Position numbers and translations under genes: made by a program. Below, one piece after another: positions 16,456 through 60,519 of a stretch of 64,000 bases of DNA; the stretch's first letter is position 1, and every line of letters begins with the position of its first letter. The notes below the pieces were generated by a model. That model saw only the letters and a list, made by a program, of their open reading frames with translations. It was not told the DNA's origin and searched no databases. This DNA comes from Isoetes taiwanensis. Lineage: Eukaryota; Streptophyta; Lycopodiopsida; Isoetales; Isoetaceae. The stretch covers positions 186,001 to 250,000 of the forward strand of contig JAJEKV010000281.1 in NCBI GenBank assembly GCA_021234155.1, given 5' to 3'.

Positions 16456-17004
<549 letters not shown>

Positions 17005-35735: not shown

Positions 35736-35925
35736 TTTTTAACTAGTCTGGTTTTATTATGCTTGGAGTCATGTGGTTTTGTTATCTTTTAAGTTTTGAA
35801 ATTTTAATGACTTAGGTGGCATGATTATAGTGAGCAACCAATCCTTGATTAAGATATTATAGGCATGCTAAAATGATTGTGTTTTAAGGGAGATTGTAGA
35901 CAGGCCAAACATGCAGTACATATAT

Positions 35926-36612
35926 TCTAGAATGGGACTCGCAAGAAACCAACAAACCGCCCATAGATAGGCTTCTCATTCATCTCAGCAGATTTTCTAC
36001 AATGGTGGACAGTGGGTAGCCGCACACATGCGAACTACCCACGAAAAATAAAGGGAAAATCCAATTATATCATTTGGACCCCAAAAAAATACAATGCTAA
36101 TAGATGAGTGGTGATGTACTGCGAAAGCTTATCAGGGATTAAAAACCCGCCCGGGTTTTCGGAGGAAAACCCTAGTGATAAACCTTCGCAAGGGGCTTAG
36201 ACAAGCGTAAAGGCATAGAATCGCTCCCAAAACCCTCGCATGGAGAAGTCGAAGCGGATGCTCGCCAGCCCGTACTGCACATCACCAACACAACAAATGA
36301 GAAAACATAGCGAGAATAGCATCACCCGGTAGGGTGGAAAAATATGATAAACGTAACTTGTACAAAATATAATAAACAAAAGAAGGGGGGGGGGAGGGTG
36401 GGTTCAAGAGAATAAGGGCTACGAGAGAAGAGGAAGCCCGATGAGTCGTGGATCAGAAACGCGCCTGAAATAGTCGAATTCCAACCGAAGCGGGCATGCC
36501 GCCGCGCATGCATGCATGACATGCATGCTCGTCGTCCCATTCTAGAATGGCGTCCGATGTCTCGGATCGATCGCGATTCTAGAATGGGGACTCGCAAGAA
36601 ACCAACAAACCG
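35926..36612 (+). repeat. Direct repeats TTCTAGAATGGG...ACAAACCGC
   Basis: About 36 bp at 35926-35961 recurs at 36572-36608 with one extra G. Nearby, CAAGAGAATAAGG plus a CGAGAGAAGAG-like tail occurs at about 36403 and 36764. These indicate local segmental duplication. Confidence 0.8.
36120..36190 (-). ncRNA. Structured-RNA candidate, copy 3
   Basis: The outer arms TGCGAAAGCTTATCA (36120-36134) and TGATAAACCTTCGCA (36176-36190) are complementary except for two G-U-type positions. On the minus strand the core reads GGGTTTTCCTCCGAAAACCC (a hairpin) and then GGGTTTTTAATCCC. The core matches copies at 48254-48340 and 51594-51680, while the arms do not. No known RNA family recognised. Confidence 0.5.
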
Positions 36613-37829
36613 CTTGGAGCTACCGGAGAACTTCCTTACAAACTAGGATCGAGGGCGAAGGTCACGGGGGACGAGGCCAAAAGGCCGGTAAAGGATAGCA
36701 AGAAAGATACGCCAAATTGGCTAAACCAGGCAGGAAGAAGCCCCTCCCCTGCCTGGAAACAATTCAAGAGAATAAGGTACTGCTGAGAGAAGAGTTGTCT
36801 TTAAATTTGAGAAGTTTGATATGTCTTAAATGTGGCTAACATGAGAACAAGGGAGAATGCAGCGGAGAGAAGAATGGCATCGATGAAGGCATCTGTTGCA
36901 GTCCACAACATGAAGAGGACCGTGGAGATGGAGAAGATTAAACTATTACCTTCATGATAGTCTCTGAAATTTAGTTCTTTCAGCATGTAATTTTTGCCTA
37001 TGAGCATTGTTAAAACTTTATAATGATTATGAATAAAAAAATCAGTCAACTTTCTGTACCATCTTCTTGCAATTTGGAAAAAAGCGTTCTGTTTACTCGA
37101 AATAAGGGCAATTTTGAGAGAGATGCTATTAGCAAAATATCTTGGTTGTGTTTGTAGGTGATTGATTATTTTTTTGTCGTAACTTTCTTGTTTCTTTTAT
37201 TACTAGATTTGACACAAGACTTGACTCATTAGATGATGCAAAGTAGAAAAACTTGAGCCTTAAAATTTATTGTGTCCTTTCACACAAGACTTGACTTAAT
37301 AGGAGTGCAACGTTGAACAGTTTTTGAGTTTTAAATTTGATGCAATTCTAGAAAGTAGATTCAATTATGTTTGTTATTAGCTTGTCACAATTTTGTTGAA
37401 ATATCAATAATTATATCCCACAACTATTTACTACAATTGTGTTACTATGATGCCAAATGCTTGATAGTATATTGGTAATAAACTTGTTATAATGTTCATA
37501 ACAATATCAATGCCATCTTGACACATCGTCGTTGCAGTGTTGCTAGAAATTGCCTTTGCGTCTAAATTTGTGACAAATGAACATGACACAATCTTGTCAT
37601 AATAGTTGACGCTCCGGTGACAACTTTGTGGCAAATGAATATGTCAGCATAGTGACAAGGATGTGACAATAAATGGAGTTTAGAAGATCCCATTTGTGTC
37701 AACAATTTCGACGTAATACCTGACGATATGAGCACCTTTCTCTTGTAGTGTGAAGAGGAGAAATAAAAAATTCTACAAAGGTTGGTTGAATTAGAGAAAT
37801 AAAATGTTGAGGTTAGATGCATGGGAGTC
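36613..37829. other. CACTA right part and flank, no gene
   Basis: To 37750 this is the CACTA right region with subterminal TGTCA motifs. 37754-37829 could continue the gag-like coiled coil. No complete ORF. Confidence 0.5.
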
Positions 37830-38463
37830 ATTTGATAGGATAAAGCCACATATATTGGAATATGAGGAGCAGAGTAGTCTCCAAAGTCTTCAAAGAAGGA
37901 GTATGTTTTCGACCATATTGACTTGTACTTGGGGATGCCACTAGAGAAAGTGGGCTATCCATAAATTGTTGCACATTATCAGGCTTTGTCACTGGAGGTG
38001 ATTGGTTGGGCATTTTGAACATCTTCATCTTGCATAATTTTGGGAACAAGTTCTTCAGTGTTTGTGTTTGCAAGGGCTTCCTTTGGAACTATAACAGAAG
38101 CTTGTTGTTCTGCTTGAATAATTGGAGGATTGGGTTGCATGCGATCATGCTGAATGAGAGGAGATATTGGAGGATGAAGGACTTGCCAGGGGCCTTGACA
38201 CCAAGAAGTTGGAGATACGTCTTTCATATTCCAGAAGGTATCTTCAACAATTAATGTAACATCTCGGGAGAGGAAAACCTTCTTGGTAAGGGGGTTGTAC
38301 ATACGATATGCCTTGGCAGACATACTGTAGCCAACAAAGATACATTTGATACTATGGTCCTCCCATTTTCTTCGTTTTTATTTAGGTACATGCACATATC
38401 AAATACAACCAAACACTTTTAGATGGGATAGTATTGGTTGCTTTCCAATCCAAGCTTCATATG
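37830..38463 (-). pseudogene. Ty1/copia integrase C-terminus and linker, fragment
   Basis: On the minus strand the reading starts YEAWIGKQPILSHLKVFG and continues SIKCIFVGYSMSAKAYRMYN then PLTKKVFLSRDV. These are hallmark segments of copia integrase (KxPxEAW...L..LRVFG and the KGYR.Y.P...K...SRDV box). The acidic/proline linker toward RT follows with frame changes. The fragment ends at 38463, where a CACTA-like terminus starts. No RT of this copy is present. Confidence 0.8.
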
Positions 38464-38909
38464 CACTACAAGACGATAGACATTTTTCATCACTTTAATA
38501 TCACCTAAAATTTCAAAAAGTATTAAGTGATATAGATACAATGACACTACCATTGACAAGATTCTACCATCTATAGTATAATTAGCATCGTCATAAATTT
38601 GATCAACAATTATATCAATACTAATTAATGACAATATATGTGTTACTAATAGTGTCATGAATAATATCACATATTGCATCAACTTTACCATCATTTATTA
38701 ATCCAATGGTACTAATGACAATATAAGTGTAATAGCTTATGCCAGTTACAGTATCATCAGCTTCATTTATAGTATCACATATTCGCAATTATATCAGTGC
38801 TAGCATATGGCGCTATATGTATTGATAATAGCATCATGGATAATATTTCGACTTACATCACTCTTAATATCAATACTTGTTGTAATTTTGATACTGATAA
38901 TATAAATGC
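38464..38909 (+). mobile_element. CACTA-like terminus, far end not found
   Basis: CACTACAAGACGATAGAC at 38464 resembles the TIR of the 30406-37750 element and breaks the copia integrase frame exactly. The following AT-rich sequence repeats ATATCA/ATGACA motifs. A matching TCTTGTAGTG followed by ATG was not found in the window, so this is a truncated element or a solo end. Confidence 0.5.
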
Positions 38910-39189
38910 AGGGTATAAAAGAGTGGCGATTAATCGCCAAAAGGCAATTTTCTAGGGATATTCAAGAAAAAAGTGGCGAAAGATTATAAGGGATGATTTT
39001 TCATGGGAAAAAAAAAATAGCCATATAAAAGGGGGCAAATTTCGTAACATCTGAAATATCGCCGAGTGAATCTGCAGGACGGTGATCACAATCGCCTTCT
39101 CTATAGACGAATCAGCAAGCTCTAAAATCGGCAAATAGCCATGTCTTGCCCACCGATGGTTCTTCTGCTGCAAAAAATCGCTGCCTATA
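38910..39189 (+). mobile_element. Terminus related to the MULE-like element
   Basis: AGGGTATAAAAGAGTGGCG followed by ATTAATCGCC aligns with the inverted right end of the 27790-29375 element (AGAGTAAAAATTAAGGACG then ATTAATCGCC). The opposite end was not identified. Confidence 0.45.
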
Positions 39190-40560
39190 GTGGCTTTCTT
39201 GTTATGCTTTTGTTCAAGTGGAGATAGGCTAGATTGGACCGATGCTTCGCGTCTGCTGGATAGCCTGAATTTGCTGCTCTATGTTCCCACAGCAAGAGGT
39301 ACAAGGCTAACCTCCTATGTCGGATTTGCATGTGGTTTTGAGCCCTATTATTGTGTGTGTATCCTTTCTAGAAAATAAGTTAAATCCATATCTGGATGTT
39401 TTTGCAGGGACCAACATGCTGTTATAGAAGGGTCACTACCTATTTGATTGGGTTCGATCTATCTACCTTCAGCATATTTGGCTCTATTTTTATGACAATC
39501 TCTATTTTCCATTTATTTGCTAACATTTATGTCCTTTTGTATCTCTGCGATGTTATGCACATAGTATCATTGTGTGTTATTTGCAGGAAAACCGAGACTT
39601 TGGACTGCTAATCAAGAAGTGTTGTTCCTCTTAGCAAAACATACATCAAGAACATGTCTGTGATCAACACTATATCTGTATTTTACTGTTGGTACATCTC
39701 TCGAAAATGTTGTTACCAGGTACTGTAGCTGCATTAGATTTTCATAGGTTTTGCTATAAAAGTATGTATAATCTGCTAACTGTTGGTATCCAATGCAGCA
39801 TAATTGATGCATTTGCTGGCAAGCTTAACAAAGGTTCATGGTCTGCTATACACAGATCTAATTACACACACAAGTAGTAGTATATGCTCCTTTAGGTAAA
39901 TAAGCTATTAGATTATTTTGCTGTCAAGAAGCGATAGATATGACTATTAGAATAAACTATTGTCTCATGCACAGGAAATTTGTTTAATTTTGATTTCTCT
40001 ATCTTTTAATATTTGAATAAGTAATGCTTTCTAATGGATAGAAGTAACGTCTTAGTGGCTGATACATCGTAAGTTTACTTTCATAAATAGATATTTTTCT
40101 AGCCTAGATCTCAAACACCATGTTGTCTATGTAATGCAACAAGTATCATTGCTTTTGAGCTTGAATGGGTCTCTTGTATGGAAGATACTACTAAAGTTAT
40201 CGGTGATCGAGAATACATCTTTTCAGATAATATTGAAAACCTCGTTTGTAATGCAATTGCTGAGAAATATCAGATTCAAGTTCACATCATACTGTACTAA
40301 CTTAGACGTGTTGTTTTAACGTTGCTATAATCCATGTTAATTAACCATTAAATTATTATTTTATTATCCACTTTGAAGATAGATCACAGTTTTTGAGGAA
40401 ATGCAGAAGCAGACTGTAGAATATCTTGATAACCTATTAGAAGATCCTTCCATCGGCAATTGAAATTTTACAGACAGGTCGCTCAGGGAACACACATAGA
40501 ATTATTTTAGAGATTATCAAGAAAGTTATAATGCAATACACTCTCTAGGCCACAAAAGTT
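39190..40560 (+). other. Exon-like fragments of unknown gene(s)
   Basis: Several short frames are bounded by TTGCAG or TGCAG acceptors. At about 40136-40299 one reads IIAFELEWVSCMEDTTKVIG and then REYIFSDNIENLVCNAIAEK. At about 40391-40460 VFEEMQKQTVEYLDNLLEDP is seen. Composition is protein-like and splice signals are plausible, but I cannot name a family. Proximity to a MULE-like end raises the possibility of captured exons. Confidence 0.35.
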
Positions 40561-41357
40561 TTGTTGCAGGCTTTCATTGGTAAGAACAAAGTCTTTTATT
40601 CTTACAAGGCTGATCCTTACAGGATTGTTTAAATGAAACTACAACACTCAGCGATCGTGAAGTCTTTACACAAGGCTTCCCTCAGGATCCCACCATATAT
40701 TGGAAGATGGTCTGGGAAGCCTAAATGTAAGAGGGGGTGTTACCATATGTGATACCATTTGTGTGGTGAAAGGGACGATTATTGTAGCTAAGAACCCATG
40801 TCTTCACCTGGCGATATTCTTTTATTGAAGGTTGTGAATGTGCTACATTAAACCTCATGGTTGATTGCTATACTTATTGCTGAGCTCTTTCTTCTTGCTG
40901 TATTTTCCTAAAACTGGAACTTAAACTTTGATTTTCATTACTCTATAGCCCTATCTTGATTCTATGGAAAAAGAAGTCAAACTTATATAGCCTTGCAATA
41001 AGGCTTCTTAAAATTAGGATATGCATTAAGATGAGGCACACTTTTGCAAGGCATACAAAATTTGTATTACTCAAATTTGCCAAATAAAATTGTTAGTGGT
41101 CGAAAAAAGTTCAAATTTAGCCAAGTATAATTATGCATTAAGAATTACTTCTAAGCAAATTTAGCCAAATAGAAATGCAAAATTCTCCTTTTTTTTCAAG
41201 TTTAGCCAAACGTAATCTTAGTGCTAAAATTTTGAGCTCCTTAAAATTTACCCTGTATAAATGTTAATGCTTATGACAATTGTAATATCATTTGTAATGG
41301 CAATACCTTCTTCAAACTCCCATAGACAAAGTACACAAAATATATTATAGAATAGAA
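40561..41357. other. No gene; ends in (TAGAA)n tail of LINE-2
   Basis: AT-rich, with three TTTAGCCAAA motifs (41118-41210). The final bases before Helitron E, TATAGAATAGAA, continue as TAGAATAGAATAGAATAG after it at 47035, so they are the distal part of the LINE-2 tail. Confidence 0.6.
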
Positions 41358-42383
41358 TCTATATATAATAATAAAGGAGTTTTGTGATAGTCTGTGCAGC
41401 ATCTTGGCCGTTGACTTTTTTTAATCTGTTTTGATCCGTAGATTTAGCGGTTTTGTTTTGCGCGCACTTTGTAATAGCCATTGCATTGCAACAACCACCG
41501 GAGCTATGGTGATGCCTTTCCTTTCTCGATTTGGTGTCGATGGTAAGTTCTTAAACATTTTCCCCTGAGTTGCTTATGGCCATTTCGATTTGGTGCCGGT
41601 GATGAGTTCCTAAGCATTTTCCCCGTTCGATTTTTTAAAGGTATTTTCGTCCCTTCATTGCACGGTTTCCTTGGGCGTCTTCTTTTTGGATCTGAGTTGA
41701 TGCCATTGAGCGGAAGTCGGATGGCAAGTTTGCAGTTTGATCTCTTTGTGGCTGCCTCAAAATTGGTTTGCATCCCCGTTTTGGCTCGACCTTTTCTGGT
41801 AGATGCTCTAATTCGGCTATTCCATTTTTCAACAGTGGTTTGTGCTTTTCAAATTTTCATTTTTCGTGGTCCTGCAAATCCACCGAGAAGTGCAGAACAA
41901 GAGCAGAGTCGGGCATTTTGTAGGACCTATTTTTGTTTTGGGCATTTATGGAACCTAGATTTATGGCACAGAGTCGGCCGTTTGTGGAATCTATTTTTAT
42001 TTGGGCCTCTGTTCTACGGATTTCCAACCAGTTAGGATATGTACATTAGGGCATTGGTGGAGAATTACAATGGACTGCAAATCCAGGTATTTTCTTGGCA
42101 GCATTTAAAATAATTTAAATGCGCAGCTCATATCTCCAAGATGAGCAATAAAGATTTTACTTCTGGCCTTAGAATGCTCATTGAAAAATGCAAAGGCCAT
42201 TTGGCCATCAATATCACATTACAATCAAAGGCAAAACCGTATCATGCTGATGAATCTTTTTACCTATGCAGAGCACAACTTTCTTCTTTTTCAGACAGAA
42301 GGAGCAGGGCACGTTTGATGCAATCTAAACTCTTATGCATTCAGTGACAAAGTTCTACTGTATAGCAGACACGACTTAAAGAC

Positions 42384-43146
42384 ATGGAAAGAATATTTGT
42401 TGCTGTTTGCGTGAGGCCAATCATAAAGCAAGACAATGATATAAATAACCCTTGGAAAGTGGATGAAAATACTATTTCCTTGTGCAATTCATATGGCATA
42501 CCTGTTCCTTCTTCTTCTTATACTTTTGGTAAGAGCATATCATTTAATCCCTATGCTAACTTATAGTGATTACTTCTAATGTTCAGTGTTCATGCAGATC
42601 ATGTTTTTGGTACAAAGGCCAGAAATGCAGAGGTCTACAACATCCATACAAAGGAAGTAATTGCTTCTGCAGTACGAGGTTTTAATGGTAAAAGACACAT
42701 GTTAAAAAGACTGGGTTTTTAAATTGTTTGCAAACTGACGACGTACATGCACTAAAGTATATTAAGCAAGAGTTGTATCGTCTATTACAAAGCATATATT
42801 TCAAAAACTTAGGTTTCTCATACATAACCAATGTTAGTGAAATGTCTTTATTAAGCTTTTGCTGTTGGACAGGCACAGTGTTTGCACATGGACAGACGAG
42901 TAGTGGGAAAACCTATACAATGCAGGGATCAGGAGATGTTCCTGGTATTATTCATCTAGGCGTCCGTGATGTCTTTTACAGCATAAAGAATGTACGTACA
43001 TTCCTGCCAGCATATTATACACATGCCATGATGGAGATTTGCATGCCATAAGCATATTGTTTTGTCAATAAAACTTCACAGATCTCTGGCAGGGAGTTTC
43101 TGACCCATGTCTCTTACATGGAGATTTATAATGAAGATGGAGTTAG
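42384..43146 (+). pseudogene. Captured kinesin motor N-terminus (kinesin-7/CENP-E-like)
   Basis: Four exons with intact GT-AG introns, in phase: 42384-42528 (MERIFVAVCVRP...), 42598-42687 (DHVFGTKARNAEVYN), 42873-42991 (FAHGQTSSGKTYTMQGSG, the ATP-binding P-loop, then GIIHLGVRDVF) and 43082 onward (REFLTHVSYMEIYNED). Kinesins are microtubule motors; MERI- starts with this P-loop variant and VSYMEIYNE are typical of plant kinesin-7. Homology stops at about 43137, just before the expected INDLL, where the sequence changes to unrelated DNA. Position 9 reads Cys where Arg is usual. Only about the first third of a motor is present, so it cannot be functional. Confidence 0.85.
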
Positions 43147-43702
43147 ACTCTCAAGGCCAAGTCGTTGATCACACTTACAAGTGAGCCACTGAACATGAGC
43201 GTGGGTGCTTCGTGTTTGAATCGACTTTGAGTTGGAGGTAGGTGACAAGTTTGATCATAAGATAACTTCTGTTCTCAGATCCAAACCTAGAGTTCGTGTA
43301 CAAGCCCTGACTAAAAGATAGTTTGCAAGCATAATCTCAGGCTTTATGCCATGCCGTAGCCTACCCATCCTCTGCAAAAATGGAACATTTAATCCTTGCC
43401 ACGGCTCTAAGCATCCAACTATTTGATTATGGATGTTTCTTCTGTTCCTAACACTTGTCTACTTCTTCTCTATTCTCCTGCTCTAACCAACCGTGGTATA
43501 TAGGGGTTGTCTCTTTGAATACCCCAATAACACCTGAAGCCTGCTTGATTGGGTTACCACATATTTGTTTAATTGTCTTAGTAGTGCCATAAGTGTCAAG
43601 ACACGGTTCAAGCTCTTTTCTTATTTGATCTCCTTGGAAATGACATACTTAATGTGGATCGGGATCCATGGAAGACTCAAAAAAATGTTGCCATCTTTGA
43701 AT

Positions 43703-44180
43703 TTAGCTCCAGATCTTTGAGGGATTATTTGTTGGATTCTCTGGCTTTAGAAACAGAACATAAACTCTAGCCCATACACGACCAAGAAGATCTACAATAC
43801 ATGCATAATGATGCATGCATGCATCGCTGCATGCATACAACACACTGAAAACAAACGTAACATGGCTTGGCTTTACACCTTGTGTTGTCATATGTCGGAA
43901 CAACAGCCCGTGAGCCTTTGCACTCTCGCCATATTGAGCATATCCTGAAATTATTAAACTCCACGACACGACATCTTGTGTGGACAAACAGTCAAAAAGT
44001 GAGCACGCATTATTCATGCTGCCACATTTGGGATACATTTCAATAGCAGCACTATTAACAAAGATATTAACAACAGGCCCAGCTTTTATCATGTGTGTAA
44101 GATGTGACAATGTAAAATGCCCTAGACATTTATTCATGGTGAAGACTGGGACACTAAGGCACTTTGACCAATAATTTTTG
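43703..44180 (-). pseudogene. Captured PPR-protein fragment
   Basis: The minus-strand frame (144 codons from 44137) carries IFVNSAAIEMYPKCGSMNNA, DVVSWSLIISGYAQYGE and GVKPSHVTFVFSVLYACSDA, then ACIVDLLGR. These are the S-, L- and P-type repeats of plant PLS-class PPR proteins, which bind organellar RNA for editing or processing. Between YACSDA and HYACIVDLLGR about 25 residues of the usual repeat are missing, at a run of ATGCATGC repeats (43802-43836). No targeting peptide, E or DYW domain. Confidence 0.8.
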
Positions 44181-45339
44181 GCCTCTACATTAGGCTTTAC
44201 TTTTTACAAATTCATTACTTCAGTTCTCACAGCTCTATTACATATTTAATAATGCATGTTTGCTGCTATATTTTCCGTGTTCTTTGGATAAAGTTGAAAA
44301 ATGAGGTATGTCCTTGCAATCTCGATCTCCTTGTGCACATGTAAATTCTGATTGTGAAAATGGAATTTAACGAGGACATCATGAATTGAAATTCAGTTTG
44401 CTATGTTTACAAACCGTGGCAACATTAAAAAAAAAAAAAAAAAATGAAACGTTGTCTTTTGAGGTTGAAATCTTATGCAAGTGAAGGGAACTTGTGTATT
44501 AGTTCCTTAGAAGATTAGTCACAAAGGATGTTCTAGGTCTGACACAAATGTTGAGCGAATAATTAGAGCGAATGCTTGATACACAAAAATTGGAGCCTTT
44601 GATAATGGTCATGGTAAGAAATATCATGCTAATGCCAAGGAACTCCCCAACGCCGCCTCAAGCTCTCTGCATGAAAAATGGGAGATCATCCGATTCTACA
44701 CATAGTTGCTATCCAAAGAGTTGGACTTGTACATGCGGTCATGTTAGGCGGGATCTTTGGGGCATCAACGAGAAATTCTAGGGGGCTTAGTAATCCCGAA
44801 GTACGCAACTAACTATAAAGGCTACCTCAATTCTCTGCATGGGTGTTGCAAGACATTCAAGCAACAACATGCAATATAACATAAGATCAACAACAGAAAG
44901 TTAGTCCACATCCTCAGAAACGGCACCAATATTCAGAGCATGGAGATGGATCATGGTCACACACTTGATGCTTTGATTAAGTTCATTTATTTCGATCGCC
45001 TAGGGTCTCCGCCTAATTAAGTTTTAAGAGTGGTCAACTCATGATGCAGTCCATACTACGGACAGTAGGGAGGATCCAATCCAATAAATACCTGTCTGCT
45101 GATTTCCCTGCTTGCTAGGCAACAAAGAAATGTGAAACATCACACTCCATTCATAAGGTGTCTTTTGTTTCAAGGATCCCTTACCTTCTGATAACCAGGT
45201 TCTTGCCATCTCCCAGTGTTAGAATGTGATCAAAATAATCTAAAAACTTCTACAAAATGCGCGATTGGCCTTTTTGAAGCCACCCCATTTCCTCAAATAT
45301 CTTTGCATCATTGGGGAAATAAGGCGTCAATATGCGACA

Positions 45340-45640
45340 AGTTTGTTACATGCATGTGGCAAAGATAGTTAGCATAGAGCAAGGCGGTGGCTCCAAGCAC
45401 CACATGACCGCGTTTCTTTATTGATATGTATGCTAGAAGTGGGAGTGAAATGGGAGCTTAAACGAAGCACACCGTGTCTTGGATGGACCTTTGAACCAAA
45501 ATGCAGTCTCATGGGGCACACTGATTACAGGGTATGCTCAGCATGCTCAAAGCTCTCTTGCTCGAGAATGTTGCAACAGCATGCAGGTTGAAGGCATAAA
45601 GCCTACCAAAGTTACTTTACTTAGAATTTTAAAAGGATAA
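45340..45640 (+). pseudogene. Second captured PPR fragment, opposite strand
   Basis: The clearest part, about 45500-45636, reads NAVSWGTLITGYAQHAQSSL then MQVEGIKPTKVTLLRIL. Upstream in shifted frames are LHACGK and IDMYAR-like segments. It is PLS-class again but differs from the minus-strand piece, so it is a different donor or repeat. It contains stops and frame changes. Confidence 0.7.
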
Positions 45641-45861
45641 AGCAGCATAGAGGAATTGAGAAGGTTGCATGAACAGATCATTGAAAATGGTTTTTCCAAC
45701 AGACACATGTTGAAGTACATAATCATATACCCAGTTTGATTACATTCTCCTTGCCATATAATTGTTAGAGTGACCATCTGGATGCTTAAAAGGATTCTGA
45801 ATGTTGAAAAACAAATCAGGTGTAATAAGGACTGCAATTGATCATTTTTACCCACCTCTCA

Positions 45862-45966
45862 GGTGATCCTGACCTATGTGGTGTTCCGGGAACAATTTGG
45901 GCTGATAAGTACTCTCCTCAAAGTTCTTCTGGCCTAGCATTTCACAAGAAAAAGGTTCCATCTTGA
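45862..45966 (+). pseudogene. Probable captured LRR C-terminal cap exon
   Basis: After a CTCTCAG acceptor the frame reads GDPDLCGVPGTIW and ends at a stop after HKKKVPS. The G-(N/D)-P-x-L-CG pattern is typical of the end of LRR domains in plant receptor kinases. It is short, so the family call is moderate. Confidence 0.5.
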
Positions 45967-47119
45967 TTTTTTATTTCCTTGGTACTCATATGTCAGTTTT
46001 AAAACAAGAATGGTTATTGCAGGTAGTAGAAGTCCGAGCATGGTTGCATGCACAACTGGGCAACCCCTTTGGGGTAAGGATGGAACTTACTGGGTACGGG
46101 GTGTTATTTCTATGGTCTACTTGTTAAACCTAGCTACAATTTAAATTACATCATTGGGCCGACAAAACTACTATGCATCAATGTCAAAACATTCTTCATA
46201 TTTTGGGTGATATTGTTATTGCAGTCATTCAGTATTCAATACGCATGCATATATGTATATCTTGGTTAATATTTTGTATTCTCTCATCTTTAGATGGTGA
46301 CCCAAAATTTCCAGTAAGCTTCTTAGGAAGTGTTTGCAAGTTATAAGCTTAGCAGAGAAAACATTTTGATGCAAATCTAAGCACCTTCAAAAATTCCAGT
46401 AACACCAACCTTGAGTCGTCATATGTCTCATAGGATTTTTAGGAAAGATGAGAGGAGAATTATTATTCATAGTAGTCATTATGCCCAAGGTCCATTATGC
46501 CCAAGGTCCATGACATTGCAAAGCATGATATTGCATTTCCAAGAATGGCAAGGCACAAATAAGGGGGGCATCTTTTGTGAAATGCAGAGCATCACCATTT
46601 GTCCAGTTGAATGCACATCACCTTCACAACAATAAAGATAATCTTATTTTTGAATGCTGTTATAACAATCAACAACATCCTAATTTTAACCACTATAACA
46701 ACAATGCATGACGGCAATAAGTTCATTAAAAACCTAGCTGTACACAATATCTTCTGATAGGTCCAGCTTTTGGCATTGTCCTGTGATGTCATTTATATCT
46801 TCTCATATGCTCTCAGTATGAGATCATGGACTAACTCTAGAGATCTAACTTCGCATAACCCTAGAATCTAATTTGCATAATCCGAATTGACTTCTTGTGT
46901 TTTATAATCTACGTGCTATATACAAAATAATCAAAAGCAAAGGAGGAAAAACCCAATGTTGTCAACCTTTTCTTTATGTTATTTTTTTGGTTTAATCCCG
47001 ACAAAAGCCCAGCAACGCTGGGCACTTTTTCTAGTAGAATAGAATAGAATAGAGATTAACGTCCCTTGTGCCCTCAGGCCCCTGGACTTGTGTAGCATGC
47101 GCGGTTTTGGTTTTTCCCA

Positions 47120-47440
47120 GGGCATAAGCATGCTACACTCTATCAAAAAAAGTACCATTTAGGAACTATAAAAGTACCTAAAAAAGTACCCAACAATGGG
47201 TACGGGGTACTTTTATAATATCTCAATACCTACAAATGTTAAATTGAATGCATTCATTTTGACCTCCAATAGTATTATCTCTATCTTAACCTTGAACATT
47301 GATATGCTTTTGACATTTTATATTGAACTTTTGAATTAGTTTTGACCAAAAGAACAAGAAAATAGTACCCAATCCAAAAGTACCTAGTGCAGGTACTTTG
47401 GCAGGTTCAAAAAATGGTAGGGTGTAGCATGCATATGCCC
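47120..47440. mobile_element. MITE, 321 bp, in LINE-2 3' UTR
   Basis: 25-bp terminal inverted repeats (47120-47144 and 47416-47440) match at 22 positions, core GCATGCTACAC. CCCA occurs immediately outside both ends and may be a 4-bp target duplication. The interior has several GTACC/GGTAC pairs. Superfamily undetermined. Confidence 0.7.
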
Positions 47441-47505
47441 CCCAATATGTTATCCCGATACACATTGTATCCTACATGCTGTTCTGGGTTAAAAACTGTC
47501 ATGAG

Positions 47506-48190
47506 CTAGATTGTCTTGGGTCCTGTGTGCCTTTGCAGCCATGCTTTTGTTGCTTTGTCTGCCCACTCCTCATTCCACTGCCCTTCATTTATTAGGTCAC
47601 TCTGGTTCAATCCCATCTCTCTGGTCCATTTTGCCACATCCTTAAACCATCCACTGCCTATGAGAATATGTGACTTTGCTGACTCAGTGATTGCAATACT
47701 AGACAATTTCCCCTGAAGGTCTCCTGCATTGTCCTTAATCAGGTACCTTATGGTCCTCTCCTATGCTCTCACCTCCATTGGTTTCTGCCCTGTTTCGAGG
47801 ATCATGATTGTCAATGGCGTATTTGTCCGTACCTTAAATTTCTGTTTGTGCCATTGCCTGAGGATTCCGCCTCTTTTTCCCATTTTTTGTCTGTTAAGCC
47901 TGGCCCCCAAGCTTCTGCCCCATATAATTGTGTAGTGGCTACTACTGCACTGAATAAGTAGCATTTGATGTCCCAGTCAATTATTCTGCTTTTGTTGCAG
48001 GAATTCTTCATATTGAAATAGCTTCCTATGGCTGATTGGAACCTCGTGTCTGCACCCTTAGCCCACTTCCCTGTGCCATGTGCATCATACCCCAGATACC
48101 TGTATTCCGTTGCTTCCTCTATTTCTGTTTCCCTATATCTAAAGGGTCTATGCCTATTCTTATGGCGAAAATAACTATCTAGATATACAT
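47506..48190 (-). pseudogene. LINE-2 RT thumb and C-terminal part
   Basis: After the SINE-like insertion the reading resumes RETEIEEATEYRYLGYDAHG, then DWDIKCYLFSAVVATTQLYG and AEAWGPGLTDKKW. This matches the YLG and YG-E-WG landmarks downstream of the RT palm. Several frameshifts are visible. It ends LQRHTGPKTI-stop. Cannot be functional. Confidence 0.75.
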
Positions 48191-48196
48191 ACTTGA

Positions 48197-48426
48197 GGTT
48201 CTAGATAAACGTCAGCAATTACTGAGCCCTCAGTAGTCATTATCTCCGCTTGTCTAGTATCATCATTACTGCAAAGGTTTTTCCCTTGAAAACCTTTCGA
48301 GGCAGGGGTTTTTTAATCCTAGTAGTAATGATTGTACTAGCCCATTGTATGGGTCCCATGACCTATTGGTCTCCGTGGACGTTAAAAAAACTATTCTATT
48401 CTATTCTATTCTATTCTATTCTATTC
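48197..48426 (+). mobile_element. SINE-like element with (ATTCT)n tail, inside LINE-2 RT
   Basis: About 230 bp on the + strand ends GGACGTTAAAAAAACTATTC and then (ATTCT)n up to 48426. It splits the minus-strand RT between GLTINLAK and the YLG region. Its 3' end resembles that of LINE-2 itself (GGGACGTTAATCTCTATTCT on the minus strand at 47064-47045 or so), suggesting it is mobilised by this LINE family. It contains the structured-RNA candidate 48254-48340. No clear Pol III A/B boxes. The left boundary is approximate. Confidence 0.6.
48254..48340 (+). ncRNA. Structured-RNA candidate, copy 1
   Basis: The arms CTAGTATCATCATTACT (48254-48270) and AGTAATGATTGTACTAG (48324-48340) pair at 15 of 17 positions. 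The core has hairpin GGTTTT-tcccttg-AAAACC and then GGGGTTTTTTAATCC. The loop CCCTTG can pair with CAGGGG downstream, which would form a pseudoknot. Confidence 0.55.
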
Positions 48427-49745
48427 TTTGCTAGATTTATTGTTAGCCCAGTTTTTTCACAGAATGTTTCCAGTATTTTTAGTAGTTTGTGCATCCCCTT
48501 ATTTTTTGTGGCCATCATACTCAGATCTTCAACTTATAGCATAATCGGTACCTTGGTGTCTCCTAACGTAGGGGCATATTCTTCCCCCCTGCTGTTCTGC
48601 TATGTAACCCTGTAAAGCATCTATGTATATCCCAAATAAAGTCAGGGATAGTGGGCAACCCTGTTTGAGCCTGTATCACAATCTATTGGCTGTCCTTCTT
48701 GCTCTATCTTCGCATATACCCTATGATATAGTCTTGCAATCGATCTTACCATGTTTCTTGGAGCTTGCATATCTATCAACCTTTGTAATAGCTTCTCTCT
48801 CGGGATGTGTCGAATGCTTTCCTGAAGTCTACAAAACAGCAAATTATCTTTCTTCCCAGTGCTTTGTTCTGTTCTATTAATATCCGAAGGGTTACTAGAT
48901 GGTCTGTGGTTGAGTGTTCTAGCCTGAAACCTGCTTGTCCTTGTGCCCTCATGTTTCCCGCTTCTGCCCAATTCTTTAATTTGCTGTCCAGTGCTTTTCC
49001 GAACCATTTTGCGAAGATGGAGCTCACTATTATTGTCCTATGGTTTCCTGGGTCTTGCCTGCTTCCTGCCTTATGTAGAGGTATGACCCTATTGTATGTC
49101 CACCTGTCTGGAAGTTTTGTATGTATTATGCCGTTGAAAATTTCCGTGACCTCTTTCCCTATTTCTGTTTCAGCACATTTTAGCAATTCCACTATCAGAC
49201 CATAGAGGTCCGGGGCTTTGTGATTAGCCATCCTGTTTAAGGTTACCATTACCTCTTGCATGTTGAAGCATGGTCTATCTGAATCTTGCAGTGTTGGTAT
49301 TGGTACGGGTGATGCCCCTGTCTTATACAATTTCTCCAGGTATTTCTCCCATCCGGCTGCTCCAATACTGTCCTACTCATTCTCTGTTTTCATATTCTCC
49401 CCTCCCTTCCTTTTGAACCCCCTCCAAAACCTTCGGGGCTGTCTCTTCAACAATTTTGCCAGACCCCATTGATGCTGTAGCAAGTTCTTATTCCATTTTA
49501 ACTTCAATAGCCTTAGGTATGCTGTTTTTTCTGTCTGATATATCTCCTTCCCTATGTGCTTTTTGGTTCTTCTTTTTGGTTCCCTGTATTCGTCATCATA
49601 CCACACTGATGCCTTGAAAGCCTTGTTCTTCCTGGGTCTTTTCTTTTTCCCGAATACCTCTGTTGCTACTCTCACCATGATGTCATTGAGGACATTGCCA
49701 TTGTCATCCGCCTTGTGTTTTCCCCATTCCCACTTTCCCATTTCC
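48427..49745 (-). pseudogene. LINE-2 reverse transcriptase, N-terminal part and palm
   Basis: The minus-strand frames read FWRGFKRKGGENMKTENE, ANHKAPDLYGLIVELLK, LPDRWTYNRVIPLHKAGSRQ then PGNHRTI, AQGQAGFRLEHSTTDHL, IICCFVDFRKAFD, QGCPLSLTLFGIYIDALQ and an altered catalytic box near LSMMATKNKG, then KTGLTINLAK. Frameshifts lie between 48776 and 48642 and near the YADD box, which does not read cleanly. It is a normal LINE RT order and an inactive copy. Confidence 0.8.
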
Positions 49746-50982
49746 TCCCTGATTGTTTGTATGAATGTATCTGTATATTTCTAGAACTACTATGGGACAG
49801 AACAGACAAGAATGCTGAAGAAGAGGCAGAACGAAAGCAAATCGACTAAAGCTCAGGCCAAGAATAAAGGCTAGAAGCTATTCATAAGAAATGGCCAAGG
49901 CCTAAACAATTGGGTAACATAGAAGGCCACATACTTACAAAAAATCCCAAAGAAAATATGATCTTAGAGAATATGCACACACCAATGGCAAAGAGAAAAA
50001 GGGCAAAAATATCTATGATGAAATAAGGTTGGAAGATACAAAGCCCAAGGTAAAACAACTTTTCTGCTTACTTCGTTACACCAAAGTAACCATGTATAAA
50101 CACCCAATAAATATAACGTTCGAGCCACAACATCGTAAAGTAACAATCACCATCCAGTACGGTTAAAACAGACTCCATAAAACACTTGAAATATGATGCG
50201 CTCCATCCATTAGTTCACCCAAATTAATTTAACTAAGCATTCAGAAAACACTATGCTTTCGAATCAAATGAGCATTAGAAGACACCATGCTTTAAAATAA
50301 AACCATGTGCTCCAATGTGTTCAACGGAAAGCAAAATATAAAATTATTATGATTGTATGAATAAAGCTGAAAAGGGTAACAAGTAAACATATGTGCATTG
50401 TTGGAGATAAGTAGATTAAAGACACAAAAAAGGAAAACACATGAATGAAGAAAAGCGCAGAGCCGAAAAGACGATTCCTAGGTCTTGCAAGGTCTGGCAT
50501 GTTTCCCGCTTGGCTCCAGGGTTCGAAGTCTGCAAATCCGAAAACAGAGCTCTCATGCAGGTTAAATGAGAACAGGCCGGAAAAACAGACGAAACATGGT
50601 AAAAGGGGTTTTTCATTATCACAGGTCTTTGGGTATGGCTGCCCTCTCTGCCAACAATTTTGGGTCATCAAACCGCCCGCAGTTAAGGTAGCCGAGTACA
50701 TAACCTGGAAATTAAGCGAAACAAGTGCACAAGAGCAGCCAAGGTAGACAGGAGCATTGGCAGAACAAAAATTGATAAAGAAACAAACTCTGAGAAATCC
50801 AACCAGAAACCCAACCATTTTGCAACCTACTTCCTGAGACTTTGTCTCTTATTCAGAATAAAACAAACAATTTCACTTCTCAACCAACAAACAACTGAGT
50901 AGCAAAAAGCAGAACGACTGAACCACAAGAAACCCACCAAAAAATTAGAACAGGTTTATAAATTAGCAAAACATCCTGAGCC

Positions 50983-51582
50983 TTAAGACAGGGTAACCAC
51001 AGATCCATCTAGCCCTATCTTTGGGCCGTTTTTCAAATCGCAAGAGGTTAAATCCGCCATCTCATAGAAGTCTGCAACACTTGGCCCCTCCCTATCCCTG
51101 ATGCAAATTATGTCTTTCCTCTTAGAAATCAAAAACTTACCTCTAGCAATGATGTCTTCGGCTGTTGCGTCCAGGGATTTGAGCGACCGTAAGTGGCTCT
51201 CTAACTCTAGAAAACAGTCCTCCAACTGATTCCAGACATCATACTGTTTCATATTTTCATAATATTTTAAGAGAGGGGCTCTTGCTCTCTTGCTCCTCTG
51301 TTGGATCTCTTCCTGCAGAGAGGAAACCTTGGCCTCCAGAGCCGTAATAATTTCTGCCCTTGAGCTACTCAGATCATCAAACTTAGCCTGCAACCTGCTC
51401 TCCAAAAGGCCACTCAGATTGTCAAACTTCGCTTCCAATCTGCCCTCCATGGCTTGAAGCCATACCGGAACATGCCCAGAGGAATCAGATGCACGTCTCT
51501 TCCCAAACTTTATAGCACCAGACTTCGGGGCCATAGCAAGCAGGCGCCATGGGCATCTCCTTGATAACCAAAACAAGTACAT
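50983..51582 (-). CDS. Coiled-coil gag/ORF1-like protein, 199 codons
   Basis: The best start is probably the internal Met of MAPKSGAIKFGKRRASDSSG, giving about 183 residues. A repeated EGRLEAKFDNLSGLLESRL / LQAKFDDLSSSRAEI segment and SSLQEEIQQRSKRAR form a coiled coil, followed by KYYENMKQYDVWNQLEDCF and a charged C-terminus. It has no zinc knuckle. Size, coiled coil and position after a structured leader resemble retroelement ORF1/gag or a non-autonomous element's single ORF. Family not recognised. It is uninterrupted, unlike most ORFs in this window. Confidence 0.45.
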   Translation of the reverse strand: MYLFWLSRRCPWRLLAMAPKSGAIKFGKRRASDSSGHVPVWLQAMEGRLEAKFDNLSGLLESRLQAKFDDLSSSRAEIITALEAKVSSLQEEIQQRSKRARAPLLKYYENMKQYDVWNQLEDCFLELESHLRSLKSLDATAEDIIARGKFLISKRKDIICIRDREGPSVADFYEMADLTSCDLKNGPKIGLDGSVVTLS

Positions 51583-51593
51583 ACTGATAGCAA

Positions 51594-51680
51594 GCTAGTG
51601 AAACCATTATGGCCGGGATTAAAAAACCTCGCCCTTTCGGGTTTTCGAGGAAAAACCCTGACGATAATGGGACCACTAAC
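51594..51680 (-). ncRNA. Structured-RNA candidate, copy 2
   Basis: The arms GCTAGTGAAACCATTATGG (51594-51612) and CGATAATGGGACCACTAAC (51662-51680) pair except for a short internal bulge. On the minus strand the core is GGGTTTT-tcctcg-AAAACCC, then GAAAGGG, CGAGG and TTTTTTAATCCC. The loop CCTCG is complementary to CGAGG, and CCC-GAAA-GGG is an alternative tetraloop hairpin. It lies just upstream of the coiled-coil ORF on the same strand. Confidence 0.55.
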
Positions 51681-51916
51681 CAATGCTAGGCCCAAAACCA
51701 TAATAGATCTTGTACCCTCATGCTGACTAGCCTTATTGGGTGTAAATACATTACAGCAATGAAGCTGCCAAAAACGAAACATGATTGAATTTGTCTCCTC
51801 GCTTGATCTTCATCTTGTGCTTCGAAACCAAAGCTCACTTCTGAAAAGCCATGCCAACGAAAGGCACACAGCAACCATTTCCCTGCATTCAAAGAAAGAC
51901 AAACCAAAGGCCACCA

Positions 51917-52040
51917 AGGCCATCTAGGCACTAAGGCCTCCATCCAGGCACAAGGGCCTCAACCAGGCACAACGGCCACCAACTAGGCACCAAGCCTTCA
52001 ACTAGGCACCAAGCCTCCAACTAGGCACCAGGCCTCCAAA
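51917..52040 (-). repeat. About 20-bp tandem repeat, six units
   Basis: On the minus strand the units are GGTGCCTAGTTGRAGGCYT with drifting variants (GTGCCTGGTTGAGGCCCTT, GTGCCTAGATGGCC). They are in the leader of the coiled-coil ORF. Confidence 0.85.
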
Positions 52041-52344
52041 CAAAAGTTAGTTTCGAAACAAGTTAAACAAACCGGAGAAGGGTGGGGGGGTGGACCAAAA
52101 CGCAGGAAAAGGAAACGGAGATGCTATGAAGGCTGATGAAGGAAGAAAGGGCCGATAAAGATGCTAAATAGAGCTAGGAAGAAGACAAAATAACTACCTG
52201 CTAACCGAATCATAGTTCTAGAATCTAGTTTTCCTTCTATTCGGTGAAACGAAGGAAAACCTTATTTTTCCTGAAATTGGATTCTTATCCTCCTTTTCTC
52301 TTCCTCCTTTTTCCCCTGTGTTGTCGGCCTGTGTCGTCCCATTC

Positions 52345-53115
52345 CCTTTAAGTGTTAATGCGGTCTATGACTTTCCCTTTTCCCAGTCGGCCAGTCCTGT
52401 AGCCTTAGTCCTACAACTATTTCAACTGCTTGACCATTCATAATTACATAGTCTACTATGCTCTTGCCGTATGCATTTTGACTCGTAAAGTTCCCTGATC
52501 CTCCCCATTTTTGCACTCCATTAGCTATGATTACCCCTGTCGCCGTGCAAACTTCAAGTAGTAATTCGCCTTTAGCGTTGACCTCTGCCTTATCCTCTGT
52601 ATCTCTCTGCCACTCCTGTGTTCTTGCTGTGTATATTATCTGACCATCTATTCCATCAATGTTCGTGCTTTGTGCCTGTTCCTGTCCAGTTCTAGCATTT
52701 AAGTCCCCTACTAGAATCATTGGCCCCTGTTCCTTCCATTTCATCATATTCTCCCCTAGATCCAGCAACTCTAGCTTGTCATTGTTTGGCAGATAGTATG
52801 CTATGATCAGAAATAGGTCTTGTTTGTTTTGCAATTGAATATTCAACACCATGTATCTTTTATTGATATCTGAATGTAATATACATGCGTTGTTAGCTAT
52901 GCTATTCTTTACATAACAGGCCAGGCCTGCTATCTTGAAATCCTTATCTTTCCAGCATGAGAATAGCTGATATCCCTCTTCCTCTGGTAGCCTCTTGACG
53001 TTGTGCTCCCATGTCTCTATTAGACATATTATGTCGCAGCTGTGAGCACCCTCGAGTCTTTCCCCGTCATCCCATGGCTACCCGGTACAGTTCCAGTACC
53101 ATATTGTTAGCGCTT
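52345..53115 (-). pseudogene. LINE-2 endonuclease domain
   Basis: The minus strand reads LTIWYWNCTG (with a stop just after), then CDIICLIETWEHNVKRLPEE with the catalytic Glu, KIAGLACYVKNS, IIAYYLPNND, MILVGDLNARTG, IVDYVIMN, and ends RESHRPH where SDHRP is expected, so one Asp codon is lost. The domain order is that of EEP-type LINE endonucleases. The stop and the lost Asp make it inactive. Confidence 0.8.
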
Positions 53116-53242
53116 CTTCCCTCGAGGTTGATCCTTTGGGGTCTCCGTGTATTCTGTCCCGTTGCCTGTTCTTCTTGGCCTTCCTCTGGTCTTCATTGTC
53201 GAGGTTGGGCCCATGATCCCCGCTTGCGGTGTTCGGTCTTCA

Positions 53243-53797
53243 TCACCCCCGCTTCCGCTTCTTTCTGCTCCTCTGTGCTGATTCCCTTCTAACGTTATCG
53301 CCCTTAGCGCTCCCCCCAGAACTCTGCTCTCCTGCCCCTGCTGTACGGTCATCAGGGGGTTTATGTTTTCCTTCTCCAATTCTGTTATTTTTGCTTGTCC
53401 CCGTGCTCCCACATTCTGTTCCTGCGCCAGAGTGGCCTGTTCTCTTACCTTCTTGTGAAGGTAGACTTTGCCATTCCTGACACCCAGCGTGTATCCCTGC
53501 TTGGTTCAACTCCCTGGCTTTGGCTAACTCCCTGTGCAGCCCTTGTCGCTGCATGACTGTTAGAGCCTCCTGTACCTTGATCCCATTCCTCAATCTGGAT
53601 CCCATCCGTAATATTCTTTCTTTGGTTGCCAAATCCCTCAATGTCAGGTTTATGTGTCTCGACCGCCCTCTCCATTGGCCTGACCGTAATGCCTTGACAA
53701 TGACACTCCTGTGTTCCTTGAATACTGTCTCTATCACTTCTGCAGTCACTTGATATATGTCCTCATTAGGTTTCTCCGCTACTCCAATTAGCTTAAC
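53243..53797 (-). pseudogene. LINE-2 ORF1 (nucleic-acid-binding), 5'-truncated
   Basis: The frame is open upstream of the first Met and starts AIVKLIGVAEKPNEDIYQ at the junction with the copia fragment. WRGRSRHINLTLRDLATKER and LRMGSRLRNGIKVQEALTV resemble the RRM and C-terminal domains of L1-type ORF1 RNA chaperones. A Gly/Ser/Lys-rich tail ends RSRKKRKRG. It overlaps the EN reading frame start region. The N-terminus is missing. Confidence 0.65.
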
Positions 53798-55310
53798 GAT
53801 GGCATGATGCTATGGCTTCTGAATATGATTCTCTCATGAAGAATCGGACATGGACCTTGCAACCACTCCCACCTGGGCGCAAGGCAATTGGTTGTAAGTG
53901 GCTCTTTAAACACAAATTCAAAGCTGATGGATCCATTTATTGTTATAAAGCAAGATTAGTAGCAAAATTCTCAAATCGAAGGGATCGATTACCTTGATAC
54001 CTTCTCTTCTGTTGTCAAAATGACATCCATCAGAACTCTCCTCACACTTGTTGCTGCTCAAGATATGTACATCTATCAAGCTGGATGTTAAGACTGCATT
54101 TCTCAATAATAACTTGGAAGAAGATATCTTCATGAAACAACCTGAAGGTTATCTTCAACCTGGACAAGAGACTCTAGTATGCAAGTTGCATAAGTCTTTA
54201 TATGGCCTCAAACAGTCTCCACGAGCATGGTATCAACAGATTGACACCTTTCTCAAGTCACATAGCTATGAGCAAGGGGAAGCAGATAGTAACATCTATA
54301 TCAAGAAGAGAAACTGTCATATTTTGCTTCTAGCTCTGTATGTGGATGATGCCATATTAGTAAGCAACGACTTTAATTTTTTGAGCGAGTGTAAACAAAT
54401 TCTTGCCAAAGAATTTCAAATGACTGATTATGGTGAAATTGCTTACTGCTTAGGAATCCAAGTCCTAAGAAATCGGAAAAAGAAGACAATTCATCTCAGT
54501 CAACAAAAATATATTGAAGACCTCTTAAAGAAATTTGAGATGGATAAGAGCACGCCAATAAGTACGCCAATGGATATGAATATAAAATTATCCAAAATAT
54601 GTGTCTCCAAAATCCTCAAGAAGAAGAGATCACGAAGAATACACCCTATGAAATGCAGTAGGCAGTCTCATGTATGCTGTTATATGTACAAAACTCGACA
54701 TTGCTCGCGCAATCAATTTTGGGAGTCAATTCTTGAGTAATCCAAGACCTATGCATTAGGCTGCAGTGAAGAGAATTCTTCGCTATCTTCCTGGCACCCC
54801 TAGCTTTGGACTTACATTACAAGGTGGTTCGCTCACACTCGCAGGTTATAGTGATGCTTCTTATGCCAATGATGTTGAAATTCACAAATCTACAACGGGA
54901 GATTATTTTCAACCTGGAAAAAGCACCATCTCCTGGTGCAGTAAAAATCAACCTACAATTTCCTTATCCAGTGTTGAAGCCGAATATATAGCTATTTGCC
55001 AAGCAACAAAAGAAGCTATATGGCTCTGAAGGTTACTTGAAGACATCATGATACCTTCACAAGGACCAGTGTTAATCAAGACTAATAGCACAAGCTGCAT
55101 CAGCATGGCAACTCAACCAAGAATCAATGCTAGATCAAAACATATTGAGATCCAGTATTGTACAGGAAAAGATTCTTGAGAAGAGGATTCAACTTCAATA
55201 TTGCCCCACTGAAGATATTGAGTAGATTTTCTTGCAAAACCTCCACCCAAAAGACAAACTTATTCTATATAAACAAAGCCTGAACATAGAAGACAGTCCG
55301 ACAGGCATCG
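53798..55310 (+). pseudogene. Ty1/copia reverse transcriptase and RNase H, truncated
   Basis: Starts abruptly at AMASEYDSLMKNRTWTL (RVT_2 N-terminus), then GRKAIGCKWLFKHKFKADGS and YKARLVAK. A frameshift leads to SSVVKMTSIRTLLTLVAAQD and another to LDVKTAFLNNNLEEDIFMKQ. LYGLKQSPRAWYQ and LALYVDDAILVS (YVDD catalytic box) follow. After a third shift near 54600, KRILRYLPGTPSFGLTLQ and SISLSSVEAEYIAICQATKE-like RNase H end with a stop at 55027 inside the domain. Gag, protease and integrase are absent upstream, where LINE-2 abuts. Confidence 0.85.
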
Positions 55311-59279: not shown

Positions 59280-60519
59280 GGTTAAACTCATGATAGAGAA
59301 GTTAGAGAGGTTTGATGCTACTATTTACTCGTTTTGTTATGTATATTTCCTCAAAAGACAATGTATTTTGCTTTGTCTGAAGTTTAATAGCATAAATCAA
59401 CTATTTAGATTATTTGAGGTGCAAACTTGTCTGTATTCACTATTTATTTAAAAGTAGAGATGTATTACATGTTATTTATGCATTAACTACAGGAAAAAAG
59501 AAAGTTGAATTTTGGCGAAATAGGTCGGTAAATCGGCAAAAAATCCCTACCTAAGTCGGCCTTCTCCCACCTAGGTCGGCAGGTCGGCTAGGTCGGTGGG
59601 TCAGCCCAACTATGGTTTGATTGAATGCATCGTTTGACCTTAACAAACTGATCCTCTCATTTACAGGCTGAGATTAATCTCAGCCGTTGGATCAAATTGC
59701 GTTACTAGCCCTAACACATTGTGATCCAAGTTTACTTTGTACATTCACAACAGAATTTAAAAACAAGCTAGGATGTTATGCATTCAGATGCATAAAATCC
59801 TAGGAAATTATGCAAGACCATGTATTACAAAATTGTTATACCAACAACAATAATTTTGTAGATTTCAGGTTTTCATATCATTTTTTCATAACATGTTTTC
59901 CGTATTACAAAAAGAATCCAGCAATCCAATGTAATACGAAGCACATATTTTTTTCTGAGATAATATGGAAGGATTGCAAGCAACATTTGAAACCTATCAA
60001 ATACAAAACACATATATTAGTTTTGACAATTAAAACCTGTACTTACTAGTTGAAAGAAAAAGTAAACGTAAATCCTTTGACTGGAGCTCCAAATTGATTA
60101 GTAGGATTTTGTTGGCAAGTAGGATTCTGGGTAGAATTTTGTTGGTGAGTAGGATTCAGTTGGTAAGTGTGATTGGGTAAAAGAAAGCTAGGGTGTCTTA
60201 CATTTGGCCAAATGTAGAGTAAGAGATGTATCACATTTCAAATACATAACCGTTTTTTCAGTATGTACATAATAGCTATATTATGGAATCTTTTTTTTCG
60301 GAACTACTTGCCACGTCAATTAAAACGCAATCATGAAGCGATTTCAATTCACGCTTCTAACCACTCCAAGAAACGCTGAGCGTTAGGAGAATTTCCCACT
60401 TTTCGGCTAAAACTTCGCCTGACTCAGATTTCCCTCCTTCTTGCCGAATTCCTCCAAATTTTAACCCTAAATCACGCAAGAACCATGATGAACAATGAAG
60501 GGAAAATGGCGCAAGAAGA
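59280..60519. other. No gene; short repeats
   Basis: 59518-59610 has GGTCGG/GTCGGC repeats. 60086-60165 has a degenerate 18-bp repeat (TAGGATTTTGTTGGCAAG type), which makes a minus-strand ORF with NPTxQQN repeats. Nothing else is recognised. Confidence 0.5.

Follow-up and report, generated by a model that had tools for sequence, protein, structure and literature searches.

Candidate ENE-type RNA stem-loops in mobile-element inserts of Isoetes taiwanensis

ENE-family RNA elements form a triple helix with poly(A) and stabilize plant transposon RNA, e.g. that of Evade in Arabidopsis (PMC12501189). The U runs and the adjacent G-C pairs of the Evade ENE are needed, and the element increases both the stability of the RNA and mobility and gives protection against deadenylation (PMC12501189). 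Earlier work identified approximately 200 ENE motifs, for the most part in plants and fungi and linked to long terminal repeat (LTR) retrotransposons (PMC12501189); a rice hAT element carries a double ENE (PMC10855403). ENEs in plant transposon RNAs are described in several papers (PMC12501189, PMC10855403, PMC10078130, PMC12846552). A 64,000 nt stretch of Isoetes taiwanensis DNA (contig JAJEKV010000281.1, positions 186,001 to 250,000; termed the window) displays three copies of a motif with a conserved core, termed copies 1, 2 and 3 (Table 1), as proposed in the initial annotation of this sequence. Copies 2 and 3 form a conserved stem-loop of ENE architecture with compensated base changes, which is kept as RNA of one strand and is located within inserts in a long interspersed nuclear element (LINE).

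Evade (Copia93 of Arabidopsis) resembles the copies described here in that a plant retroelement RNA displays a fold-back stem-loop with U-run internal loops and neighbouring G-C pairs; however, the Evade element has four U tracts and is in the spacer between the open reading frame (ORF) and the downstream LTR (PMC12501189). Copies 2 and 3 have two U tracts each, i.e. one internal loop; copy 2 is carried by a LINE-tailed element and copy 3 by an insert of 2.4 kb. The rice hAT element TWIFB1 has a U-rich internal stem-loop in a plant transposon RNA that forms triple helices, but it is a double domain and the copies here are single domains (PMC10855403). The 3′ triple helix of MALAT1 and MEN-beta joins a U-rich internal loop with an encoded A-rich tract, as the A7 run near copy 2 might do; there, however, the RNA continues into a tRNA-like structure that is removed by cleavage (PMC11411715, PMC10855403). 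The window is without a tRNA according to ARAGORN. The PAN RNA ENE of a gammaherpesvirus is similar by description in its U-rich loop and poly(A) triple helix, but is part of a viral noncoding RNA (PMC12846552, PMC11411715). With one U-rich internal loop per copy, the Isoetes sequences are not double-domain ENEs (dENEs). The U runs of MALAT1 and MEN-beta are longer than those of the copies here, and the PAN RNA ENE has flanking G-C pairs.

The 5′ to 3′ order in copy 2 is outer arm, AGG, U5, CCCUUG, AAAA, CCU-UUCG-AGG, CAGGGG, U6, AAU, CCU and outer arm. That of copy 3 is outer arm, GGG, U5, CCUCG, AAAA, CCC-GAAA-GGG, CGAGG, U6, AAU, CCC and outer arm. When the U runs are held open, both sequences give one rod consisting of the arms, a collar, a U-rich internal loop, an upper stem, an AAAA bulge and a 3-bp hairpin with a tetraloop, which is UUCG in copy 2 and GAAA in copy 3. 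U5 is opposite U6AAU between G-C pairs in both copies, and the pairs directly beside the U-rich loop are GG/CC below and CC/GG above. The minimum free energy (MFE) fold of copy 3 (-37.6 kcal/mol) is ENE-like apart from two U residues in the 5′ tract, which are paired to AA; when both U runs are open the energy is -35.8, i.e. 1.8 kcal/mol higher. The initial annotation described pairing of the hairpin loop with a downstream strand in copies 1 and 2. Such pairing exists, however CCCTTG/CAGGGG belongs to copy 2 and CCTCG/CGAGG to copy 3, and copy 1 has only a mismatched version. The strands assigned to the proposed pseudoknot are the upper stem of the ENE fold.

Both strands of the 64 kb were scanned with an ENE descriptor (U4-7, a G-C-closed upper stem of at least 4, U5-8, and a G-C-closed lower stem of at least 3). 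The scan finds copies 2 and 3 only, both of which have an arm score of 41. In 60 shuffled windows there are six places in total (0.1 per window), and their arm scores are 13-22. Because the descriptor was composed after the copies were seen, the scan is a measure of rarity and not an independent prediction.

All three copies are stably folded, with MFE values of -34.8 (copy 1), -33.4 (copy 2) and -37.6 kcal/mol (copy 3). For each copy, 300 dinucleotide-shuffled versions were all less stable than the real sequence (z of -5.8, -5.4 and -4.9, respectively). The copies are not extremes of the window in plain stability: 46, 60 and 19 of 2132 tiles of 95 nt are as stable as copies 1, 2 and 3 or more so, and 18 of the 20 best tiles shown are satellite arrays at 17.0-19.9 and 21.5-22.1 kb.

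The outer arms are complementary within each copy, as first noted, and pair at 15 of 15 positions in copy 1, 18 of 20 in copy 2 and 19 of 22 in copy 3; the registers used for these pairing counts and for the G-U count below were picked after the folds were seen. Arms crossed between copies pair at 7-10 of 15 positions (best of offsets 0-4), whereas matched arms pair at 15, 14 and 12 (copies 1, 2 and 3). In the register used, 17 of 19 positions pair in copy 2 and 16 of 19 in copy 3; other offsets tried give 3-14 and 3-11. The arms had been thought to be unrelated between copies. This is correct for copy 1, whose arms differ, but those of copies 2 and 3 can be aligned gap-free and look homologous.

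Compensation was counted in copies 2 and 3 only, with hand-aligned, gap-free arms. This is due to the misplacement of copy 1 in a MAFFT alignment of all three sequences; copy 1 is included in the G-U count. Comparison of the 25 collar and arm pairs shows 11 that are the same, five with double changes, four with single changes, four broken in one copy and one unpaired in both. Addition of five upper-stem pairs gives 30 pairs; the apical hairpin and the sixth upper-stem pair of copy 2, which has no partner in copy 3, are omitted from the simulation test. Twenty-five of the 30 pair in both copies and 17 are changed, 12 of which still pair, and seven of the 30 are changed on both sides yet remain paired. 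Unconstrained simulations reach seven double changes in 121 of 100,000 runs when started from copy 3 and in 168 of 100,000 when started from copy 2. The 57 arm positions of the three copies comprise 44 Watson-Crick pairs, eight G-U pairs, no A-C and five other (G-U versus A-C, P = 0.004). These counts bear out the selection on base pairing that the initial annotation had suspected, and a structured RNA selected for base pairing and tied to mobile elements is supported.

An RNA element kept by selection is real, and it is most likely of the ENE type in unusual hosts. Copies 2 and 3 probably belong to the ENE type, in a nuclear genome that is plant-like, and copy 1 is probably a relative that has diverged or decayed. 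Within the RNA, the U runs of each element would clasp an A tract in the form of U-A-U triples. The A tract may be the poly(A) tail or possibly, for copy 2, the A7 encoded upstream of (TTCTA)n. RNA clasped in this manner would be shielded from deadenylases and exonucleases, and more element RNA would then be at hand for transposition. Copy 1 would have retained the arms and both U runs and lost a firm upper stem. RNA stabilization as the role of the copies is suggested by analogy with the described ENEs. Nothing pointed to the translation, packaging or self-processing (self-cleavage) functions raised in the initial annotation, although no test was aimed at these.

Several observations weigh against this assignment. 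Copy 1 has the arms, a GGG/CCC collar and U4 and U5AAU tracts, but lacks a firm upper stem; in its fold with open U runs (-29.2 versus the MFE of -34.8) the upper stem and its G-C pairs are not formed. Its MFE fold, in the absence of poly(A), is a two-hairpin junction and not an ENE, and the descriptor scan of the window does not pick it up. A covariance model built from copies 2 and 3 only gives copy 1 27.7 bits, barely above the antisense copy 2 control (27.2 bits). The core of copy 1 has 75% identity with that of copy 3 over 68 columns (E = 4e-4, search of the window); its proposed membership of the family is based on these core letters and on a model score that the antisense control nearly matches. 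Copy 2, when poly(A) is absent, likewise has a two-hairpin junction as its MFE fold, and its ENE fold (-31.8) is 1.6 kcal/mol less stable. An ENE structure has no need of the conserved AAAACC. Only two good sequences are behind the compensation test, and its weaker measure (12 of 17 changed pairs still paired) is attained in 3.2% and 2.9% of simulations. An A run of at least 5 was not found within 380 nt of copy 1 or 560 nt of copy 3. Copy 3 is on the 5′ side of an ORF, at a distance of 58 nt, and 1.8 kb before the end of its insert, but the cited ENEs are in 3′ untranslated regions or near 3′ ends. This placement is the main oddity; the transcript may stop short of the ORF, or a tail further away may be within reach of the ENE. 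A search of the whole window gave no Rfam family at gathering score. The original statement that no family matches is nevertheless not supported, given the ENE fold that copies 2 and 3 take with the U runs open.

A three-way junction or switch, which is compatible with an ENE, would have GGTTTT/AAAACC and GGTT/AATC hairpins inside the outer stem, with the cis AAAA and the poly(A) tail in competition for the 5′ U run and a flip between a closed and a tail-bound form. The MFE folds of copies 1 and 2 have this form, GGTTTT and AAAACC are kept in all three copies, and one double change is within the hairpin (A-U in copy 2 versus G-C in copy 3). However copy 3 has an ENE-like MFE fold and loses 5.1 kcal/mol when the hairpin is forced, the double changes of the upper stem fit the ENE and not the GGTTTT/AAAACC hairpin, and the U6 run is left unexplained. 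The junction or switch is regarded as doubtful, although it retains an appreciable chance. An H-type pseudoknot, composed of a GGGTTTT/AAAACCC hairpin and the loop-downstream pairing, is very unlikely. Both of its helices can be drawn in the sequences of copies 2 and 3, but the third loop would have 3, 5 and 7 nt to cross 7, 9 and 7 bp in copies 1, 2 and 3, and by general stereochemistry such a loop is strained in copies 1 and 2. In addition, the second helix is mismatched in copy 1, and neither the collar nor the U6 run is accounted for.

The arms could also be DNA palindromes or remnants of fold-back transposons, formed by insertion into or creation of a palindrome and with no RNA role, an alternative already raised in the initial annotation. 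The DNA is rich in repeats and other inverted repeats are near. A DNA palindrome that decays by transitions would give equal numbers of G-U and A-C mismatches; the observed eight versus zero argues against it, as do the conserved core that separates the arms and the compensated changes seen where the arms of copies 2 and 3 are aligned. A DNA-only origin is hardly credible.

An extension of the ENE assignment, which appears rather improbable, is that the ENE family provides a module for RNA stability that moves between unrelated transposons in one genome. The LINE-tailed element would then clasp the encoded A7 before (TTCTA)n without a poly(A) tail, and the conserved AAAA bulge would be a built-in competitor that keeps the clasp shut until an A tract comes.

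An ENE in a LINE-mobilized element whose tail is not poly(A) would bring this form of decay resistance to LINEs and short interspersed nuclear elements (SINEs), and would pose the question of which A tract is bound. The UUCG and GAAA versions would provide a compact natural pair for triplex tests.

Rfam matches at E of 10 or less around copies 2 and 3 consist of four snoRNA matches antisense to copy 2, far under gathering score, and none near copy 3. At the same threshold the covariance model has 21 matches in the window, i.e. the two source sequences, copy 1, antisense copy 2, positions 59763-59808 (20.1 bits, E = 0.04) and 16 that are weaker. Two ENE half-site patterns gave one and zero matches in viral contigs, and one pattern gave three in genome contigs, these collections not being plant genomes. 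The single viral-contig match is antisense to an ORF that by eye looks like an endonuclease. All four matches were taken as chance, as by inspection none has a long outer stem or an ENE in its MFE fold. An ENE in a SINE or LINE was not found among the literature titles and abstract openings listed, some of which are part of larger result lists, and the negative is weak.

The mobile-element setting that had been described is supported: copy 2 is in a SINE-like element and copy 3 is just upstream of a coiled-coil-like ORF. Both inserts are within one broken LINE (Table 1), in which the endonuclease (PF03372) is above the Pfam cut-off and the reverse transcriptase (PF00078, E = 2e-4) is below it. 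Direct comparison of the contexts of copies 1, 2 and 3 shows that the motif is the sole common part at E < 0.05.

A distance of 50 nt separates copy 2 from the downstream tail of its element. The end of this element resembles that of the host LINE (84% over 32 columns, E = 1e-4), of which approximately 9 nt precede the simple-repeat tail. The common 3′ end, GGACGTTAA followed by (CTATT)n, is short and mainly simple repeat. The 5′ part shows a weak possible likeness to the LINE (22 nt, 77%, E = 0.27). Four simple patterns for pol III A and B boxes were not found in 48181-48440. The carrier of copy 2 looks like a LINE-mobilized nonautonomous element. In the 3′ region of the LINE there is also an insert that resembles a miniature inverted-repeat transposable element, at 47120-47440, whose inverted repeat has 26-bp arms (88%).

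The insert with copy 3 is bordered by TTCTAGAA at 49779-49786 and 52216-52223. Pfam matches of its 183-codon ORF are all under cut-off, and PDB gives only weak matches to repeat proteins (E of 0.04-0.08). The C-terminal half presumably resembles gag-like proteins of tyrosine-recombinase retroelements.

Copy 1 is flanked by direct repeats of 37-38 bp (97%) at 35924-35960 and 36576-36613, about 653 bp apart, both of which end in ATTCTAGAAT. TTCTAGAA is found at the insert borders of both copy 1 and copy 3, and has eight occurrences in the window.

Table 1. Positions of the motif copies, their parts and the elements that carry them in the window
Feature	Position	Strand	Basis or remark
Copy 1, weaker relative	36120..36190; arms 36190-36176/36134-36120	-	sequence, fold, model score
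Candidate ENE copy 2, whole	48254..48340	+	fold with U runs open, descriptor scan, compensatory changes
Copy 2 lower stem	48254-48260/48334-48340 and 48262-48272/48322-48332	+	fold
Copy 2 collar	48275-48277/48318-48320	+	fold
Copy 2 5′ U5 tract of internal loop	48278..48282	+	sequence, scan
Copy 2 upper stem CCCUUG/CAGGGG and CCU-UUCG-AGG hairpin	48283..48308; AAAA bulge 48289-48292	+	fold
Copy 2 3′ tract U6AAU of internal loop	48309..48317	+	sequence, fold
A7 run, candidate A tract in cis	48384..48390	+	43 nt past copy 2 structure
SINE-like (LINE-tailed) element carrying copy 2, ~210 bp	48215..48427	+	5′ border approximate; ends GGACGTTAAAAAAA(CTATT)n
Candidate ENE copy 3, whole	51593..51681; collar 51658-51656/51617-51615	-	MFE, scan
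Copy 3 5′ U5 tract	51651..51655	-	sequence, scan
Copy 3 upper stem	51650-51646/51631-51627; AAAA bulge 51645-51642; CCC-GAAA-GGG hairpin	-	MFE
Copy 3 3′ tract U6AAU	51618..51626	-	sequence, fold
183-codon coiled-coil-like ORF (MAPKSG...)	50983..51534	-	starts 58 nt past copy 3
~2.43 kb insert carrying copy 3 and coiled-coil-like ORF	49787..52215	-	borders inferred
Broken host LINE	47035..53809; (TTCTA)n tail 47053-47035	-	endonuclease and reverse transcriptase fragments; 5′ border from ORF

The window is rich in repeats, eukaryotic and of a land-plant look, with a Copia-type RVT_2 domain and the endonuclease and reverse transcriptase of LINEs (Pfam). A PPR-like ORF was recognized by eye. Another LINE, on the minus strand at 13211-16430, has long ORFs for endonuclease (Pfam PF03372) and reverse transcriptase (PF00078). 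Two satellite arrays of a 19-bp unit are found in opposite orientation at 17000-19868 and 21492-22085, and a weaker array similar to these is upstream of copy 3 at 51920-52039. Long stretches at 1090-3200 and 31888-33690 are strongly purine-rich (GAAAAG-like). An open frame of 958 residues at 56001-58877 (minus strand) displays, by eye, repeated protein-kinase-like domains.

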